A stretch of 64,000 nt of DNA from Burkholderiaceae bacterium (GTDB lineage: Bacteria > Pseudomonadota > Gammaproteobacteria > Burkholderiales > Burkholderiaceae_C): positions 48,165 to 112,164 of the forward strand of contig JAGOPK010000004.1 in the NCBI GenBank assembly GCA_017992055.1. Reading direction: 5' to 3'. Below, in pieces: positions 40,108 through 47,396 of the stretch (position 1 is its first letter; every line of letters starts with the position of its first letter). Both the position numbers and the translations under genes were made by a program. The notes below the pieces were generated by a model, which was not told the origin of the DNA, did no database searches, and worked only from the letters and a program-made list of their open reading frames with translations.

Positions 40108-40698
40108 ATGTCCAAGCCGATGAACCCTCCCCTCCCGACCCTGCCGGAATGGCAGGTCAGCCAGTGGTTGAACACGCCGCGGCCGCTCACGCTGCAAGGC
40201 CTGCGCGGCCGGGTGGTGCTGCTGCACAGCTTCCAGATGCTGTGCCCGGGTTGCGTGGCCTACGGGCTGCCGCAGGCCGAGCGCGTGCGGCGCGCCTTTC
40301 CCGAATCGGAGCTGGCGGTCGTGGGCCTGCACACGGTGTTCGAGCACCATGCGGTGATGACCTTCGACGCGCTGCAGGCCTTCGTCCACGAGTACGGCTG
40401 GAGCTTCCCGATCGGCGTCGACCAGCCCGATGGCCGTGGCGGCCCGTCGCGGACGATGGCCCTCTACGGCCTGCGCGGCACGCCCTCGTGCCTTGTGCTC
40501 GACCGCCAGGGACGCGTGCGGATGCAGCACCTCGGCCAGCTCGACGACCTCGTGCTCGGTGCGCTGCTGGGGCGGCTGATCGCCAGCCCGGAGCCCCAAC
40601 CCGGCAACGACGCCCTGCCGGCCGAGCCGGCCCAGCCCGCAGCACGGCACGATGTCGCGGCGTGCACCCCGGCTGGCTGCAATCTGCCGCACGGCTAG
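40108..40698 (+). CDS. Thioredoxin-like/redoxin family protein
   Basis: 196-residue thioredoxin-fold protein. The redox site is FQMLCPGCVAYGL (CPGC), and the cis-Pro loop is RGTPSCLVLD. A long C-terminal tail ends in ACTPAGCNLPHG with two more Cys, unusual for simple thioredoxins, and could be a second redox pair or metal site. No signal peptide. The start at 40108 is favoured by GGAG 6 bases upstream; ATG 40093 is an alternative. The gene lies 59 bases after the CMD gene, consistent with a shared redox function. Confidence 0.78.
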   Translation: MSKPMNPPLPTLPEWQVSQWLNTPRPLTLQGLRGRVVLLHSFQMLCPGCVAYGLPQAERVRRAFPESELAVVGLHTVFEHHAVMTFDALQAFVHEYGWSFPIGVDQPDGRGGPSRTMALYGLRGTPSCLVLDRQGRVRMQHLGQLDDLVLGALLGRLIASPEPQPGNDALPAEPAQPAARHDVAACTPAGCNLPHG

Positions 40699-40711
40699 CC
40701 AGGAGATGCCG

Positions 40712-41437
40712 ATGAAGACCGCCGTCGCCATCCGGCACCTGGCGTTTGAAGACCTGGGCCTGATCGGGCCGTGGCTGCAGCGGCGGGGCTGGCGCCTGGT
40801 CGTCTGCGACGCCGGTGTGGACGGGTTTGCGGCCATCGACCTCGACCGGGTGGACCTGCTCGTGGTGCTCGGCGGGCCGATCGGCGCGTTCGACGACGCC
40901 GACTACCCGTTCCTGGCCGAGGAAGTGGCGCTGATCCGGCAGCGGCTGCACAGCGGCCGGCCCATCCTGGGCATCTGCCTGGGCGCACAGCTGATGGCCC
41001 GGGCGCTGGGCGCGGGCGTGGCCCCCATGGCCCCTACCGCCACCACCGCCACCACCGGCAGCCGCGAGATCGGCTATGCGCCGCTGCAGCTCAGCCCCGC
41101 CGGCCAGGCCAGCCCGCTCGCGGCGCTGGCCGGGCAGCCGGTGCTGCACTGGCACGGCGACCAGTTCGATCTGCCGGCGGGCCTGCCCAGCCTGGCCATG
41201 ACGCCGCGCTGTCCGCACCAGGCCTTCATGGCCGGCGTGCATGCGCTGGCCTGGCAGTTCCACCTCGAAGTGGACGGGGCGCGCATCGAGCCCTGGCTGA
41301 TCGGCCACGCGGCCGAGCTGCGGCAGGCCGGCATCGACGTGCCCGCGCTGCGTCGGGCCGCGGCGCAGCACCGGGCAGGCCTGGCGGCGGCGCTGGATGC
41401 GGTGTTGACCGACTGGTTCGGGCGGCTGCGGCTGTGA
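40712..41437 (+). CDS. Class I glutamine amidotransferase-like protein
   Basis: 241-residue GMP-synthase-type glutaminase-fold protein. The nucleophile elbow GICLGAQLMA has Cys89, and the His-x-Glu pair is in WQFHLEVDG near residue 180. Such stand-alone proteins (YfeJ/GuaA-like) act as amidotransferases or gamma-glutamyl hydrolases of uncertain role. AGGAG at 40701-40705 gives correct spacing only to the ATG at 40712, which decides the start over 40706. It is the last gene of the araC-linked plus-strand group. Confidence 0.85.
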   Translation: MKTAVAIRHLAFEDLGLIGPWLQRRGWRLVVCDAGVDGFAAIDLDRVDLLVVLGGPIGAFDDADYPFLAEEVALIRQRLHSGRPILGICLGAQLMARALGAGVAPMAPTATTATTGSREIGYAPLQLSPAGQASPLAALAGQPVLHWHGDQFDLPAGLPSLAMTPRCPHQAFMAGVHALAWQFHLEVDGARIEPWLIGHAAELRQAGIDVPALRRAAAQHRAGLAAALDAVLTDWFGRLRL

Positions 41438-41496
41438 CGCGCCTGCGCGGGGCGCAGGCCGGGCCCGGCTTGCCGCCGCCCCGGCTTTGATGGATA

Positions 41497-41512
41497 CTGT
41501 GTTTGCATACAG
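41497..41512 (+). promoter_or_regulatory. LexA (SOS) box upstream of the integron-type integrase
   Basis: CTGTGTTTGCATACAG fits the proteobacterial LexA consensus CTGT-N8-ACAG exactly in its outer tetramers. It ends 24 bases before the integrase ATG, where it would overlap the promoter; TTGATG at 41487-41492 is a possible -35. LexA control of integron integrase genes is established for other integrons, which supports the call. Confidence 0.8.
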
Positions 41513-41536
41513 TTATCCAGTTCCCCGAGGCCGTCC

Positions 41537-42631
41537 ATGAGCCTTCCGCCTGAAGTCCCGTTCGAGGCCGGGCCAACGCCCGCCGGGCCGGTGCGGCTGC
41601 TGGATCGGCTGCGCCACCAGATCCGCTTCATGCACTACAGCCTGCGCACCGAGGAGGCCTATGTGCACTGGGTGCGCGCCTTCATCCGCTACCACCAGCT
41701 GCGCTACCCCGCCGATCTGGGCGGCGAGGCCATCGAGGCCTTTCTGGGCTGGCTGGCCACCGAGCGCCAGGTGTCCGCCTCCACCCACCGGCAGGCCTTG
41801 TCGGCCCTGCTGTTCCTCTATCAAAGGGTGCTGGGCCTGAACCTGCCCTGGATGGACCAGATCGTCCGGCCCCAGCGCCCGCCGCGGTTGCCGACGGTGC
41901 TGTCGCATGACGAGGTGGCGCGGGTGCTGGCGGCCCTGCCCGAGCCGCACCGCCTGTTCGGGCAGCTGCTCTACGGCACCGGGCTGCGTCTGCTGGAGGC
42001 CTTGCGCCTGCGCGTCAAGGATCTGGACTTCGAGCGCCGGGCCATCCTCGTGCGCGAGGGCAAGGGCGGCAAGGACCGGGTGGTGATGCTGCCGGCCTCG
42101 CTGGAGCAGGCCTTGCGCGGGCAGCTGGCCGCCGCCCATGCGCTGTGGACGGCCGACCGGGCCGCCGGCGTGACAGGGGTGCAGCTGCCCCATGCGCTGG
42201 CGCGCAAGTACCCGCGCGCCGGCCAGTCCTGGGCCTGGTTCTGGGTCTTTCCCCAGGCCACGCTGTCGGACGATCCGCGCGGCGAAGGCCGGCGCCGCCA
42301 CCACCAGCACGACCAGTATTTCCAGCGCACCTTCCGCCAGGCCGTGGCCGGTGCCGGCCTGCACAAGCCGGCCACGCCGCACATCCTGCGCCACTCGTTC
42401 GCCACCCATCTGCTGCTGTCGGGTTGCGACATCCGCACCGTGCAAGAGCTGCTGGGCCATGCCGACCTCGGCACGACCATGATCTACACCCATGTGCTCA
42501 AGCTGGGCGGCGGCGCGGTGCGCAGCCCGGTGGACAACCTGGCGGCCTGGGCGCCGCCGCCAGCGCCAGCGCCACCGCCCCGTGCAGGCGAGCGGGCGGC
42601 GGCCTATGCCCGTCGGCTCGTCTTGGCCTGA
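41537..42631 (+). CDS. Integron-type tyrosine recombinase (IntI family)
   Basis: 364-residue tyrosine recombinase. Catalytic residues are Arg151 ([11 protein letters not shown]), His282 and Arg285 ([13 protein letters not shown]), His308 ([10 protein letters not shown]) and nucleophile Tyr317 (MIYTHVLK), each five residues on from the known IntI1 positions. It also carries the extra insert that defines integron integrases over XerC/D, with [19 protein letters not shown] and [16 protein letters not shown]. The end region [13 protein letters not shown] is IntI-like. It should recombine attI/attC-type sites, but I saw no cassette array. A LexA box precedes it, and dnaE2 follows 26 bases later. 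Confidence 0.92.
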
Positions 42632-42657
42632 TGTCCGCCACCTGATGCCGCCCGCCC

Positions 42658-45600
42658 ATGTCGCCAGGCTATGCCGAGCTGCACTGCCGCAGCCATTTCA
42701 GCTTTCTCACCGGCGCGTCCAGCCCCGAGGAGCTGGTGGTGGCCGCCCATCTGCAGGGCTATGCAGCCCTGGCGATCACCGACGAATGCTCGCTGGCCGG
42801 CGTGGTGCGGGCCCATGCCGCGGCCCGGCCCGAGCCTGGCCAGCCGGCCCTGCTGCCGCTGATCATCGGCAGCGAGATGCGCCTGAGCCTGCCGCCCGCG
42901 GCCGGGGCCGCCCGGGTGGACAAAGCCGGCACAACGCCCAAAGCAGGCAAGGCGGGCAAGGCCGCCGCGGCCATCCGGCCGCTGCCCGCCTCCTCGCCGC
43001 TGGCCGGCCTGGCCACGGCGCCACGCCTGGTGCTGCTGGCCCAGACGCGGCGCGGCTACGGCAACCTGTCCACCTGGATCAGCATCGCGCGGCGCCGGGC
43101 CGCCAAGGGCCAGTACCTGGCCTATGCCTCGGACCTGGAAGGCCAGGTGCCCAGCGCACCTTATCTGGCCGGCCTGCCCGACTGCTTTGCGCTGCTGATC
43201 CCCGAGCCTGGCCAGGACCAGGCCACCCTGCTGGCCCATGCGCAATGGCTGAAGACCTGGTTTGGCAGCGAGCGCTCGGCCCTGGCCATCGAGCTGCTGC
43301 AGCGCCCCGGCGAAGCCCGCCTGCTGGAGCTGCTGCCGCAGGTGGCCGAGCTGGCCGGCCTGCCGCTGGCGGCCGCCGGCGACGTGCTGATGCACCGGCG
43401 CTCGCGCCGGCCGCTGGCCGATGTGCTGGCGGCCACGCGGCTCAACCGCCCGGTGGCCGACTGCGGCTTTGCGCTGGCCGCCAATGCCCAGGCCCATCTG
43501 CGCGCGCTGCCCTGCCTGGCCCGGCTGTATGAGCCGGCCTGGCTGCAGGCCACGCTGCGCATCGCCGAATCCTGCCGCTTCTCGCTGTCCGAGCTGCGCT
43601 ACGAATACCCCGAGGAGATCGTGCCGCCGCAGCACACGCCGGCCAGCTGGCTGCGCGCGCTGACCGAGGCCGGCGCGGCGCGGCGCTTTCCGGGCGGCGT
43701 GCCAGCGAAGGTGCGCCAGTCCATCGAGCATGAGCTGCAGGTCATCGCCCAGCTGCGGTTCGAGCCCTATTTCCTCACCGTCGCCGACATCGTGACCTGG
43801 GCACGCGACCAGGGCATCCTGTGCCAGGGCCGCGGCAGCGCGGCCAACTCCACCGTCTGCTACTGCCTGGGCGTGACCGAGGTCGATCCCGACCGCACCC
43901 AGCTGCTGTTCGAGCGCTTCATCAGCCCCGAGCGCAACGAGCCGCCCGACATCGACCTGGACTTTGAGCACCAGCGCCGCGAGGAGGTGATGCAGTACCT
44001 CTACCGCAAGTACGGCCGCCACCGCGCCGCACTGACCGCGGTGGTCATCAGCTACCGGCCGCGCTCGGCGCTGCGCGACGTGGGCCGGGCCCTGGGTCTG
44101 GACCTGGACCGCATCACCGCGGTCAGCAAGTCGCAGCAGTGGTTCGACGGCCGCCGCATCGATCCCGAACGCCTGCGCGAGCACGGTTTTGATCCCGAGG
44201 CGCCGCTGTGCCGGCAGTGGATGGCGCTGACCGAGCAGCTGATCGGCATGCCGCGCCACCTGAGCCAGCATCCGGGCGGCTTCGTCATCGCCCGCGACGA
44301 CGTGTCGCGCCTGGTGCCGGTGGAAAACGCCGCGATGGACGAGCGCACCGTGATCCAGTGGGACAAGGACGACCTGGACGTGCTGGGCCTGCTCAAGGTG
44401 GACATCCTGGCCCTCGGCATGCTCAGCGCCATCCGCCGCAGCCTGGCCTGGGTGGCGGCCAAGGCCGGCTGGCCCGAAGGCCGCATGCAGCAGGTGCCGC
44501 CGCACGACGATGCGGTCTACGACATGCTGTGCCGCGCCGATGCCATCGGCCTGTTCCAGGTCGAGAGCCGGGCCCAGCTGAGCATGCTGCCGCGGCTGCG
44601 GCCCCGGCGCTTCTACGACCTGGTGATCGAGGTCGCCATCGTGCGCCCGGGGCCGATCCAGGGCGGCATGGTCCACCCCTATCTGAAGCGCCGCAGCGGC
44701 GAGGAGCCGGTGGACTATCCCAGCGACGAGGTGCGCCAGGTGCTGGAGCGCACCGAGGGGGTGCCCATCTTCCAGGAGCAGGTGATGCAGCTGGCCATGG
44801 CCGCCGCCGACTTCACGCCCGGCGAGGCCGACCGCCTGCGCCGCGCCATGGCCGCCTGGAAGCGCAAGGGCGGGCTGGGGCCGTTCCACGACCGCCTGGT
44901 CGGCCGCATGGTCGAAAAAGGCTATCAGCCCGACTACGCCGAGCGCATCTTCCGGCAGATCCAGGGCTTCGGTGAATACGGCTTTCCCGAGAGCCATGCC
45001 GCCAGCTTTGCGCTGCTGGTCTGGGTCAGCGCCTGGCTCAAGCACCACCATCCGGATGCCTTCCTGGTCGGCCTGCTGAACAGCCAGCCGATGGGCTTTT
45101 ATGCGCCGGCCCAGCTGGTGCGCGATGCCCGCGCCCATGGCGTGCAGGTGCTGCCGGTGGACGTGGCGCTCAGCGACTGGGACTGCACGCTCGAAGGCCC
45201 GCCTCAGCCGCTTGCGATCGCGACCGCGACCGCACCCGCGCCCGGGATCCCGCCCGGCCCCTGGCTGCCCGGCGGGCAGCAGCTGGGGCTGCGTCCGGTG
45301 CGCCTGGGCCTGCGCCAGCTGCGCGGCCTGCGCCAGGACCATGCCGAGCGCCTGCTGGCGGCCCGCGCCCAGGCGCCGTTTGCCAGCGTCGAGGACCTGG
45401 CGCGCCGCGCCGGCCTGGAGGCCCAGGCCATGGCCTGCCTGGCCGATGGCGACGCGCTGCGCTCGCTCAGCGGCCACCGCCACCAGGCGGCCTGGGCCGT
45501 GCGCGGCCTGGACACGCGCATGCACCAGGCAGCCCATGGCGCGCCGCTGCTGGCCACCAGCCGCACCCATGAAGACCCGGCCCTGCTGGCCGCGCCGGCG

Positions 45601-46026
45601 CTCGGCGAGCAGGTGCTGGCCGACTACCAGGCCCAGGGCCTGTCGCTCACCGCCCACCCGCTGTCGCTGCTGCGCAGCACGCTGGCCGCCTATCTCATCC
45701 AGGACGCGTCCACCCTGAGCACCCAGGCGCGGCCGGGCCAGCTGGTGCGGGCCTCGGGCCTGGTCACCCACCGTCAGCGGCCCGAGACGGCCAAGGGCGT
45801 GGTCTTCGTCACGCTCGAAGACGAGACCGGCACGGTCAACGTCATCGTCTGGCCCCAGCTGGCGCAGTCCGCATCGCAACGCCGGCCGCTGCTGGCCGCC
45901 CGGCTGCTGACGGTGTACGGCGTCTGGCAGCGCCAGGGCCCGGTGCAGCACCTGGTGGCGCGGCGCCTGGTCGACCACAGCGCGCTGCTGCAGGGCCTGG
46001 TGGTGCGCAGCCGCGACTTCCACTGA
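42658..46026 (+). CDS. dnaE2: Error-prone DNA polymerase III alpha subunit DnaE2
   Basis: 1122-residue C-family polymerase for translesion synthesis in SOS mutagenesis. An N-terminal PHP domain begins YAELHCRSHFSFLTGASSPEE. The catalytic carboxylates lie in PPDIDLDFEH (Asp431, Asp433), and the DnaE2-type C-terminus carries an OB fold (LVRASGLVTHRQRPETAKG) and ends SRDFH, as usual for DnaE2 rather than replicative DnaE. Usual length is about 1030-1090; extra residues lie in the Lys/Ala-rich insert near 85-105. It is 26 bases after the integrase stop, has no own LexA box or clear ribosome binding site there, and is likely co-transcribed. The usual imuA and imuB partners are not adjacent. Confidence 0.95.
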   Translation: MSPGYAELHCRSHFSFLTGASSPEELVVAAHLQGYAALAITDECSLAGVVRAHAAARPEPGQPALLPLIIGSEMRLSLPPAAGAARVDKAGTTPKAGKAGKAAAAIRPLPASSPLAGLATAPRLVLLAQTRRGYGNLSTWISIARRRAAKGQYLAYASDLEGQVPSAPYLAGLPDCFALLIPEPGQDQATLLAHAQWLKTWFGSERSALAIELLQRPGEARLLELLPQVAELAGLPLAAAGDVLMHRRSRRPLADVLAATRLNRPVADCGFALAANAQAHLRALPCLARLYEPAWLQATLRIAESCRFSLSELRYEYPEEIVPPQHTPASWLRALTEAGAARRFPGGVPAKVRQSIEHELQVIAQLRFEPYFLTVADIVTWARDQGILCQGRGSAANSTVCYCLGVTEVDPDRTQLLFERFISPERNEPPDIDLDFEHQRREEVMQYLYRKYGRHRAALTAVVISYRPRSALRDVGRALGLDLDRITAVSKSQQWFDGRRIDPERLREHGFDPEAPLCRQWMALTEQLIGMPRHLSQHPGGFVIARDDVSRLVPVENAAMDERTVIQWDKDDLDVLGLLKVDILALGMLSAIRRSLAWVAAKAGWPEGRMQQVPPHDDAVYDMLCRADAIGLFQVESRAQLSMLPRLRPRRFYDLVIEVAIVRPGPIQGGMVHPYLKRRSGEEPVDYPSDEVRQVLERTEGVPIFQEQVMQLAMAAADFTPGEADRLRRAMAAWKRKGGLGPFHDRLVGRMVEKGYQPDYAERIFRQIQGFGEYGFPESHAASFALLVWVSAWLKHHHPDAFLVGLLNSQPMGFYAPAQLVRDARAHGVQVLPVDVALSDWDCTLEGPPQPLAIATATAPAPGIPPGPWLPGGQQLGLRPVRLGLRQLRGLRQDHAERLLAARAQAPFASVEDLARRAGLEAQAMACLADGDALRSLSGHRHQAAWAVRGLDTRMHQAAHGAPLLATSRTHEDPALLAAPALGEQVLADYQAQGLSLTAHPLSLLRSTLAAYLIQDASTLSTQARPGQLVRASGLVTHRQRPETAKGVVFVTLEDETGTVNVIVWPQLAQSASQRRPLLAARLLTVYGVWQRQGPVQHLVARRLVDHSALLQGLVVRSRDFH

Positions 46027-46142: not shown

Positions 46143-47396
46143 ATGGCCTTGCAAGCCTTGTTCATCGCATCCTGGGAGCAGGCCGCCGGCACCTGGGTCG
46201 CCCGCCACGGCCTCAATGGCAGCCAGTACCAGACCGCCTTCGACCAGTACGTGGCGCAGGGCTACCGGTTGCGCTGCGTCAGCGGCTACAGCGTCGCTGG
46301 CGTCACGCGCTATGCGGCGATCTGGGACAAGCAGTCCGGGCCGGCCTGGGCCGCACGCCACGGCCTCAGCGCGGCCCAGTACCAGCAGGCCTTCGATCAG
46401 CTCAGCGCCCAGGGCTATCGGCTGAAGATGGTCAGCGGCTATTCGGTGGGCAGCAGCCCGCGCTTTGCCGCGCTGTGGGACAAGTCTTCGGGTCCGGCCT
46501 GGACCGCGCGCCACGGCCTCAGCGGCGCGCAGTACCAGCAGACCTTCGACCAGCTCGGTGCCCAGGGCTACCGGCTGCGCTGGGTGTCGGTGTATGCCGA
46601 GGGCGGCCAGGCCCGCTATGCCGCGCTGTGGGACAAGTCCAGCGGTGCCGCCACCGTGGCCCGCCATGGCCTGGAAGAAGCCGCCTTCCGCAGCGCCGCC
46701 CAGAGCTATGCCGCACAAGGCTATGACCTGGTCTGCGGCAATGCGGTCACGCTGGGCGGCAAGGACCACTACGCCGCGCTGTGGGAGAAGAAGGCGGTGC
46801 AGAGCGTGATGCACCACGGCATGACCGGCGCCACCTACCAGATCAAGTTCGACGACCTGGTGGCCCAGGGCTGGCGGCCCGGCTTCGTGGCCGGCTATGC
46901 CGGCGAAGACCCGGTCGACGTGAGCCTGCGCTTTCCCATCCAGCAGCAACAGCAAAGCCAGTGGTGCTGGGCCGGCGTATCGGCCAGTGTCTCGCGCTAC
47001 TACGTGCCGTCCTCCACCTGGACCCAGTGCCGCATCGCCAACCAGCAATGGGGCCGCAACGACTGCTGCGGCAGCGGCGCGGCGGGCGCCTGCAACAACC
47101 CCTCGACCCTGGGCACGGCCTTGACGACGGTGGGACACTTCGACCGCCAGACCTCGGCCCAGGAGAGCCTGCAGACGCTGGAGACCGAGCTGGTGGCCGG
47201 CCGGCCGCTGTGCATCCGCGTGGGCTGGTCCGGTGGCGGCGGACACTTCGTCGTCGCCTCGGGGGTCGAGGACGATGGCTTCGTCTGGGTTTCCGACCCC
47301 GGGGGCGGCACCACCTCGCTGGTGGCCTACGACACCCTGCGCACGGCCTACCGCGGCTCGGGCACCTGGACCCACAGCTACTTCACCCGCGCCTGA
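46143..47396 (+). CDS. Five-repeat protein with C-terminal papain-like cysteine protease domain
   Basis: 417-residue protein. Residues about 1-255 are five tandem repeats of ~45 residues with the core ARHGL...QY...FD..VAQGYRL..VSGY......RYAALWDK, matching the bacterial tandem repeat found in polyglycine-hydrolase-type proteins. Residues about 260-417 form an AvrRpt2/C39-like papain fold with Cys275 (QSQWCWAGVSASVS), His368 (GGGHFVVASG) and Asp385 (WVSDPGGG). There is no obvious signal peptide. GAGGAGA lies before the start. A small gene follows after 14 bases. It may be a self-processing or effector-like protease; the target is unknown. Confidence 0.8.
   Translation: MALQALFIASWEQAAGTWVARHGLNGSQYQTAFDQYVAQGYRLRCVSGYSVAGVTRYAAIWDKQSGPAWAARHGLSAAQYQQAFDQLSAQGYRLKMVSGYSVGSSPRFAALWDKSSGPAWTARHGLSGAQYQQTFDQLGAQGYRLRWVSVYAEGGQARYAALWDKSSGAATVARHGLEEAAFRSAAQSYAAQGYDLVCGNAVTLGGKDHYAALWEKKAVQSVMHHGMTGATYQIKFDDLVAQGWRPGFVAGYAGEDPVDVSLRFPIQQQQQSQWCWAGVSASVSRYYVPSSTWTQCRIANQQWGRNDCCGSGAAGACNNPSTLGTALTTVGHFDRQTSAQESLQTLETELVAGRPLCIRVGWSGGGGHFVVASGVEDDGFVWVSDPGGGTTSLVAYDTLRTAYRGSGTWTHSYFTRA
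46190..46900 (+). repeat. Five tandem coding repeats of ~135 bp
   Basis: Within the protease gene the first three units are highly similar at DNA level (each containing a GCCACGGCCTCA-type core and a GCGCTGTGGGACAAG-type core), the fourth and fifth more diverged. They encode the ~45-residue repeat. Near identity of units 1-3 suggests recent duplication or gene conversion. Confidence 0.75.

Follow-up and report, generated by a model that had tools for sequence, protein, structure and literature searches.

Why does the gene of an integron integrase stand directly ahead of dnaE2, the gene of an error-prone DNA polymerase, behind what resembles a single SOS operator? The question is raised by a stretch of 64,000 nucleotides from a Burkholderiaceae bacterium, which is called the window below. 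The features concerned are as follows.

40652..41437, + strand: glutamine amidotransferase (PRK07053), directly upstream and outside the module
41497-41512, no strand assigned: LexA-type box CTGTGTTTGCATACAG, predicted operator of the intI-dnaE2 unit
41537..42631, + strand: intI, integron integrase, 364 aa (NCBIfam models and active site)
42632..42657, + strand: intergenic stretch between intI and dnaE2, 26 nt, in which neither a box nor a site resembling a promoter or terminator was found
42658..46026, + strand: dnaE2 (imuC), error-prone DNA polymerase, 1122 aa (PRK05672)

The analysis suggests that intI and dnaE2 quite probably form one LexA-repressed transcription unit, which would couple cassette recombination to error-prone synthesis. 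The glutamine amidotransferase had no match at E 1e-10 in the related loci compared. Just 3' of dnaE2 (46143-47396) lies the gene of a protein that combines five BTRD1 repeats with a Peptidase_C70/C39-like domain; it too had no match in the related loci compared.

An insert specific to IntI, located before the second catalytic box, is a mark of the integron integrase family. It is present in the window, where residues 205-262 align to the V. cholerae IntI4 structure (2a3v) with a single one-residue gap; this structure was the best PDB match, and the whole alignment spans residues 25-334. The window integrase scored above the cut-offs of NF011946 (471.6 bits, cut-off 435) and TIGR02249 (444.1, cut-off 265), and these scores together with the 2a3v match rule out a phage integrase or Xer identity. 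The active-site set R-K-H-R-H-Y is complete (R151, K179, H282, R285, H308 and Y317). Across the 38 linked integrases, this one among them, 34 have the full set, and active-site residues are altered or missing in the exceptions L059, L095, L203 and L205. The dN/dS of the window intI was 0.20-0.27 against three relatives. Over 11 pairs the values were 0.07-0.27 for intI and 0.14-0.41 for dnaE2, with intI lower in each pair. As far as its sequence tells, the window integrase is intact and under purifying selection.

The DnaE2 of the window reached 1441.2 bits against the PRK05672 error-prone polymerase model (cut-off 939), and contains the PHP, polymerase, finger, HHH (helix-hairpin-helix) and OB-fold domains. 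No second dnaE2 that would make the window copy spare was found in its genome; the other match there was a 32%-identical gene, taken for dnaE1. The genome also has imuA, which passes its NCBIfam model and is preceded by a LexA-type box. The imuB 3' of it is less clear, with a translated frame that is weak against NCBIfam and an IMS match just above the Pfam cut-off. These two genes are located on contig C18 and dnaE2 on contig C15. On C18 no dnaE2 comes directly after imuA-imuB, and dnaE2 in turn does not have imuA and imuB immediately 5' of it, so this genome carries its mutagenesis cassette in two separate parts.

The sequence at 41497-41512 is the sole exact CTGT-N8-ACAG within the window, and 24 nt separate it from the intI ATG at 41537, just where the initial annotation had placed a LexA box ahead of an IntI-type recombinase gene. 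With one mismatch allowed there were 10 matches, against 19.9 expected from shuffling. Boxes of this looser kind are rarer than the shuffled expectation, so the weight is placed on the exact match, for which a chance origin was ruled out, whereas it was not for the one-mismatch matches. Throughout the genome (5.9 Mb in 40 contigs) the exact motif occurs at 14 sites, against 6 for a reversed control pattern, and part of the 14 may be chance. Two of the sites are directly before recA (recognised by eye) and one is before imuA; the operator motif at 41497 is thus common to recA of the same genome. The box at 41497 is a credible operator, at which LexA would bind.

For the comparison of related loci, 38 non-redundant linked pairs were retained, no two with more than 97% DNA identity, after L009, L202, L204, L207 and L211 (identical to kept loci) and L061 had been dropped. 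Of the 36 loci with enough upstream sequence, 31 have an exact box in the 170 nt ahead of intI, and 33 do when one mismatch is allowed. Between intI and dnaE2 there was no exact box in any of the 38 loci (46.5 kb); elsewhere in the same loci there were 4 in 416 kb. One-mismatch boxes do occur between the genes in some order-level loci, and such boxes are often expected by chance. When the dnaE2 start was set at the equivalent of residue 1 of the window DnaE2 (start codons are inferred), the intI frame overlapped it in 18 of the 38 loci; the gap was 9-93 nt in 17 and 784-1271 nt in 3. In the same clade, by comparison, 18 of 22 dnaE2 genes that lack intI have their own exact box within 260 nt; L131 and the imuB-adjacent L229 were excluded, and two of the four misses had less than 350 nt upstream. 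Unlinked dnaE2 is mostly boxed and no exact box stands between the linked genes, so that dnaE2 seems to be served by a single LexA site in both arrangements; in the linked one this would be the site of intI.

One SOS unit is supported by the box ahead of intI, by the absence of any exact box from the interval between the genes, and by their overlaps; in such a unit the two genes would be co-transcribed and co-induced, as the initial annotation had proposed. It had also described dnaE2 as following 26 bases past the intI stop without a LexA box of its own, and the 26-nt gap indeed holds no exact box. Its wording that the genes are fused in one unit holds in the sense of a putative single operon, but the two ORFs are separate and there is no fusion of the proteins. 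Counted against the operon are the 5 of 36 loci with no exact box in the 170 nt ahead of intI, the inserts of 0.4-1.3 kb in some genomes, and the four altered IntI active sites.

Several loci depart from the usual layout. A 403-residue open frame in the same direction, ATPase-like by eye and seen in one genus, lies between intI and dnaE2 at L206:11525-12797; this insert has no exact LexA box, and the gap in L099 has the same length. Toxin-antitoxin-like ORFs (by eye) are located between the two genes in L342 (G508) and L346 (G295). The 6.7-kb locus L094 carries intI and a divergent small ORF, then yaaA, with no dnaE2 found; possibly it represents loss of dnaE2 from the pair.

The initial annotation had named occurrence in this single genome as a refutation, and the pair is no such oddity. 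Beyond the 38 loci, 8 further linked pairs were found, 6 of which belong to three other families in the order. Among 20 genomes of the same genus an intI match was found in 15, and in 12 of these intI lies ahead of dnaE2; in one of the 12 the integrase is decayed (G002) and in another the gap is 784 nt (G011). A family sample of 250 genomes, the window's included, had 119 with intI, 186 with dnaE2 and 178 with imuB. The two genes are linked in at least 18 of the 119 intI-bearing genomes, a lower bound because the downstream DNA was inspected for part of the intI loci; two of the 18 (G102 and G290) have a 1271-nt gap. In each of the 18 the best imuB match is either on a different contig or no closer than 158 kb. 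From the 18 pairs in 119 genomes, not all of them checked, intI usually sits elsewhere than before dnaE2, and many related genomes have dnaE2 without intI. Carriers of the pair include Piscinibacter aquaticus, Piscinibacter caeni and Aquabacterium terrae, as well as Rhizobacter and Rubrivivax metagenome assemblies.

In an order sample of 300 genomes, intI was found in 114. The downstream DNA was read at 85 intI loci outside the family (L256-L340), a subset of the matches, and dnaE2 was downstream in 6, spread over the three other families. An exact box precedes intI in four of these six and a one-mismatch box in two; three of the loci have gaps of 12-34 nt, and the other three have gaps of 0.4-1.2 kb that contain open frames. 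Among the 83 order-level intI loci long enough to compare, dnaE2 was the commonest downstream family (6 loci), followed by a recO/pdxJ-like neighbourhood (named by eye; 4 loci, all in one family). The six out-of-family loci are not six events, since they include sister integrases (G508 with G449, and G543 with G295); they may represent only three or four.

An attC covariance model was trained on 16 sites from relatives. It found sites upstream of intI in 18 of the 34 linked loci searched, with a maximum of 22 (L199). Six of these 18 loci had provided sites for training, and upstream sequence is short in some of the 16 negatives. The 23 loci with dnaE2 and without intI (L213-L235) gave a single marginal match (L225, E 0.038). 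No attC was found by the model in the 64-kb window, so that the array adjoining intI in a complete integron is absent here. In the window's genome as a whole (G000), attC sites occur at three places: C15:278034-284510 (L236), C22:16694-18143 (L237) and C6:654-2154 (L238), of which the C15 sites begin about 187 kb beyond intI. These arrays are distant from the only integron integrase gene found in this genome. A search for a GTTRRRY-type attI core in the 300 nt surrounding the box gave nothing in the window; as it gave nothing in 16 relatives either, even those with arrays, the negative carries little information.

A divergent small ORF, coding for a protein of about 95-120 aa, lies upstream of intI in at least 20 of the 38 linked loci, and also at two intI loci where no dnaE2 was found (L094 and L186). 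Examples, compared in alignment A2, are:

L083:240-524, - strand: divergent small ORF
L199:12919-13257, - strand: divergent small ORF
L208:8828-9094, - strand: divergent small ORF

Against Pfam and NCBIfam, 6 of 21 members showed weak similarity to DUF5710 (best E 0.0011), and the rest gave chance-like matches. This ORF may share the SOS control. It had no match in the window's genome, in a search run without a positive control, and was therefore left out of the window's module.

The single SOS unit has to be weighed against a dnaE2 transcribed mainly from its own promoter in the 3' part of intI, the two genes being neighbours without co-regulation. A sigma-70 and terminator scan of 41300-42900 found neither kind of site, but it missed the intI promoter as well; it is thus weak evidence that excludes nothing, and a promoter inside intI could serve dnaE2. 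The remark in the initial annotation that dnaE2 has no evident promoter agrees with the empty scan, although the scan is uninformative. However, separate control is very unlikely in view of the linked loci, none of which has an exact LexA box between the genes, while most unlinked dnaE2 genes are boxed. It is also rather unlikely that the window intI is a relic of a lost integron, with its promoter kept only to express dnaE2. The window copy could be decaying as an integron, having neither an adjoining attC nor a genomic match for the divergent ORF, as a relic would; however, its active site is intact, its dN/dS is that given above, and attC sites fitting the model of the relatives occur at three places of the genome, where the integrase may still act.

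More serious, though somewhat doubtful, is the possibility of a positional accident: integrons would settle or be inherited near dnaE2, and the co-transcription would be a by-product without selection for the coupling. The trees, which are quick searches with support by SH-aLRT only, bear on this. On the first DnaE2 tree, in which L197 and L198 fall outside the main clade, there are 16 changes of the linked state, of which well-supported branches force 12; on the second, the clustering of the linked rows does not exceed that of shuffled labels (65 of 500 shuffles were as low). Moreover, yaaA lies downstream of dnaE2 in linked and unlinked loci alike, so intI may simply have come or gone. Against an accident stand the rank of dnaE2 as the commonest family downstream of intI in the order, in three families although perhaps in three or four events, the occurrence of linked pairs in separate parts of the IntI and DnaE2 trees, and the recurrence of gene overlaps and of the missing exact box before dnaE2. 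The opposite view is that the pair is a selected and repeatedly evolved evolvability operon: integrons would repeatedly settle ahead of dnaE2, in one visible case within imuA-imuB-dnaE2, and take over its SOS control, tying cassette shuffling to point mutagenesis, and DnaE2 might possibly also take part in the DNA synthesis that completes cassette insertion. Confidence in this view falls just short of even. Given the 16 state changes on the first DnaE2 tree and the lack of clustering beyond shuffles on the second, the coupling may be either selected or incidental.

The first IntI tree has 28 linked integrases in one group (SH-aLRT 80), with L197, L198, L201 and a mixed group that contains L111 and L132 standing apart; in the second, built from other rows under a simpler model, the 28 split into two groups. 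A common origin of all pairs lacks support: on the trees, repeated gain and an old linkage followed by many losses look alike. A plausible picture of how the pair arose is offered by G508, which would be an integron inside imuA-imuB-dnaE2. Its order is an imuB end (36% identity), a weak attC match (E 0.0021), the box, intI, the toxin-antitoxin-like ORFs and dnaE2. The remark that the recombinase occupies the usual imuA-imuB position fits this locus, where the integron lies between imuB and dnaE2.

The operons of dnaE2 are reportedly the subject of Erill et al. 2006. Integron recombination and DnaE2 mutagenesis are two well-known SOS-driven routes to new traits, and the portions of the literature consulted describe them as separate SOS units. 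SOS-controlled chromosomal integrons of the Vibrio cholerae superintegron type (PMC3108266) likewise have IntI behind a LexA box, and in the window's relatives the attC array also lies 5' of intI. Here, by contrast, the box is followed by dnaE2 as well, downstream of intI and co-oriented with it. The words "dnaE2", "polymerase" and "operon" are absent from the main text of that survey. The imuA-imuB-dnaE2 cassette, in the sections available (PMC3323433, PMC9578287), also has a LexA-controlled dnaE2 as the downstream gene of an SOS unit; here, however, dnaE2 is split off behind an integrase gene, and imuA-imuB has its own box at another locus. For Vibrionaceae, this cassette is reported to occur where the superintegron is on the large chromosome, but this is a looser association, a correlation with replicon location, with no adjacency or shared promoter (PMC3323433). 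No intI-dnaE2 unit was found in the available text of PMC3108266, PMC9578287, PMC8876359, PMC3919608, PMC6511836, PMC3323433, PMC8565304, PMC7417476, PMC13114513, PMC2864759 and PMC3820712, nor in the titles and abstracts searched, a scope in which subscription papers are largely missing and which may have missed an earlier description. Within those portions, the arrangement is undescribed, as the initial annotation had it.

The single SOS unit would work as follows. DNA damage would remove LexA, and the promoter ahead of intI would then drive both genes. IntI would excise and insert cassettes at attC sites, in the window's genome on distant arrays, and the mutagenic DnaE2 would work with ImuA-ImuB supplied from a second SOS operon elsewhere in the genome. 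Such a unit probably originated when an integron platform came to sit directly ahead of dnaE2, which would have placed dnaE2 under the intI promoter. A natural operon of both genes in four families would offer a test of whether selection favours the joint switch-on of acquisition and mutation. The integrase promoter would gain a second job, which could explain the persistence of an integrase without an adjoining cassette array. In the window's bacterium and a number of its relatives, two engines of genetic change are probably switched on together.
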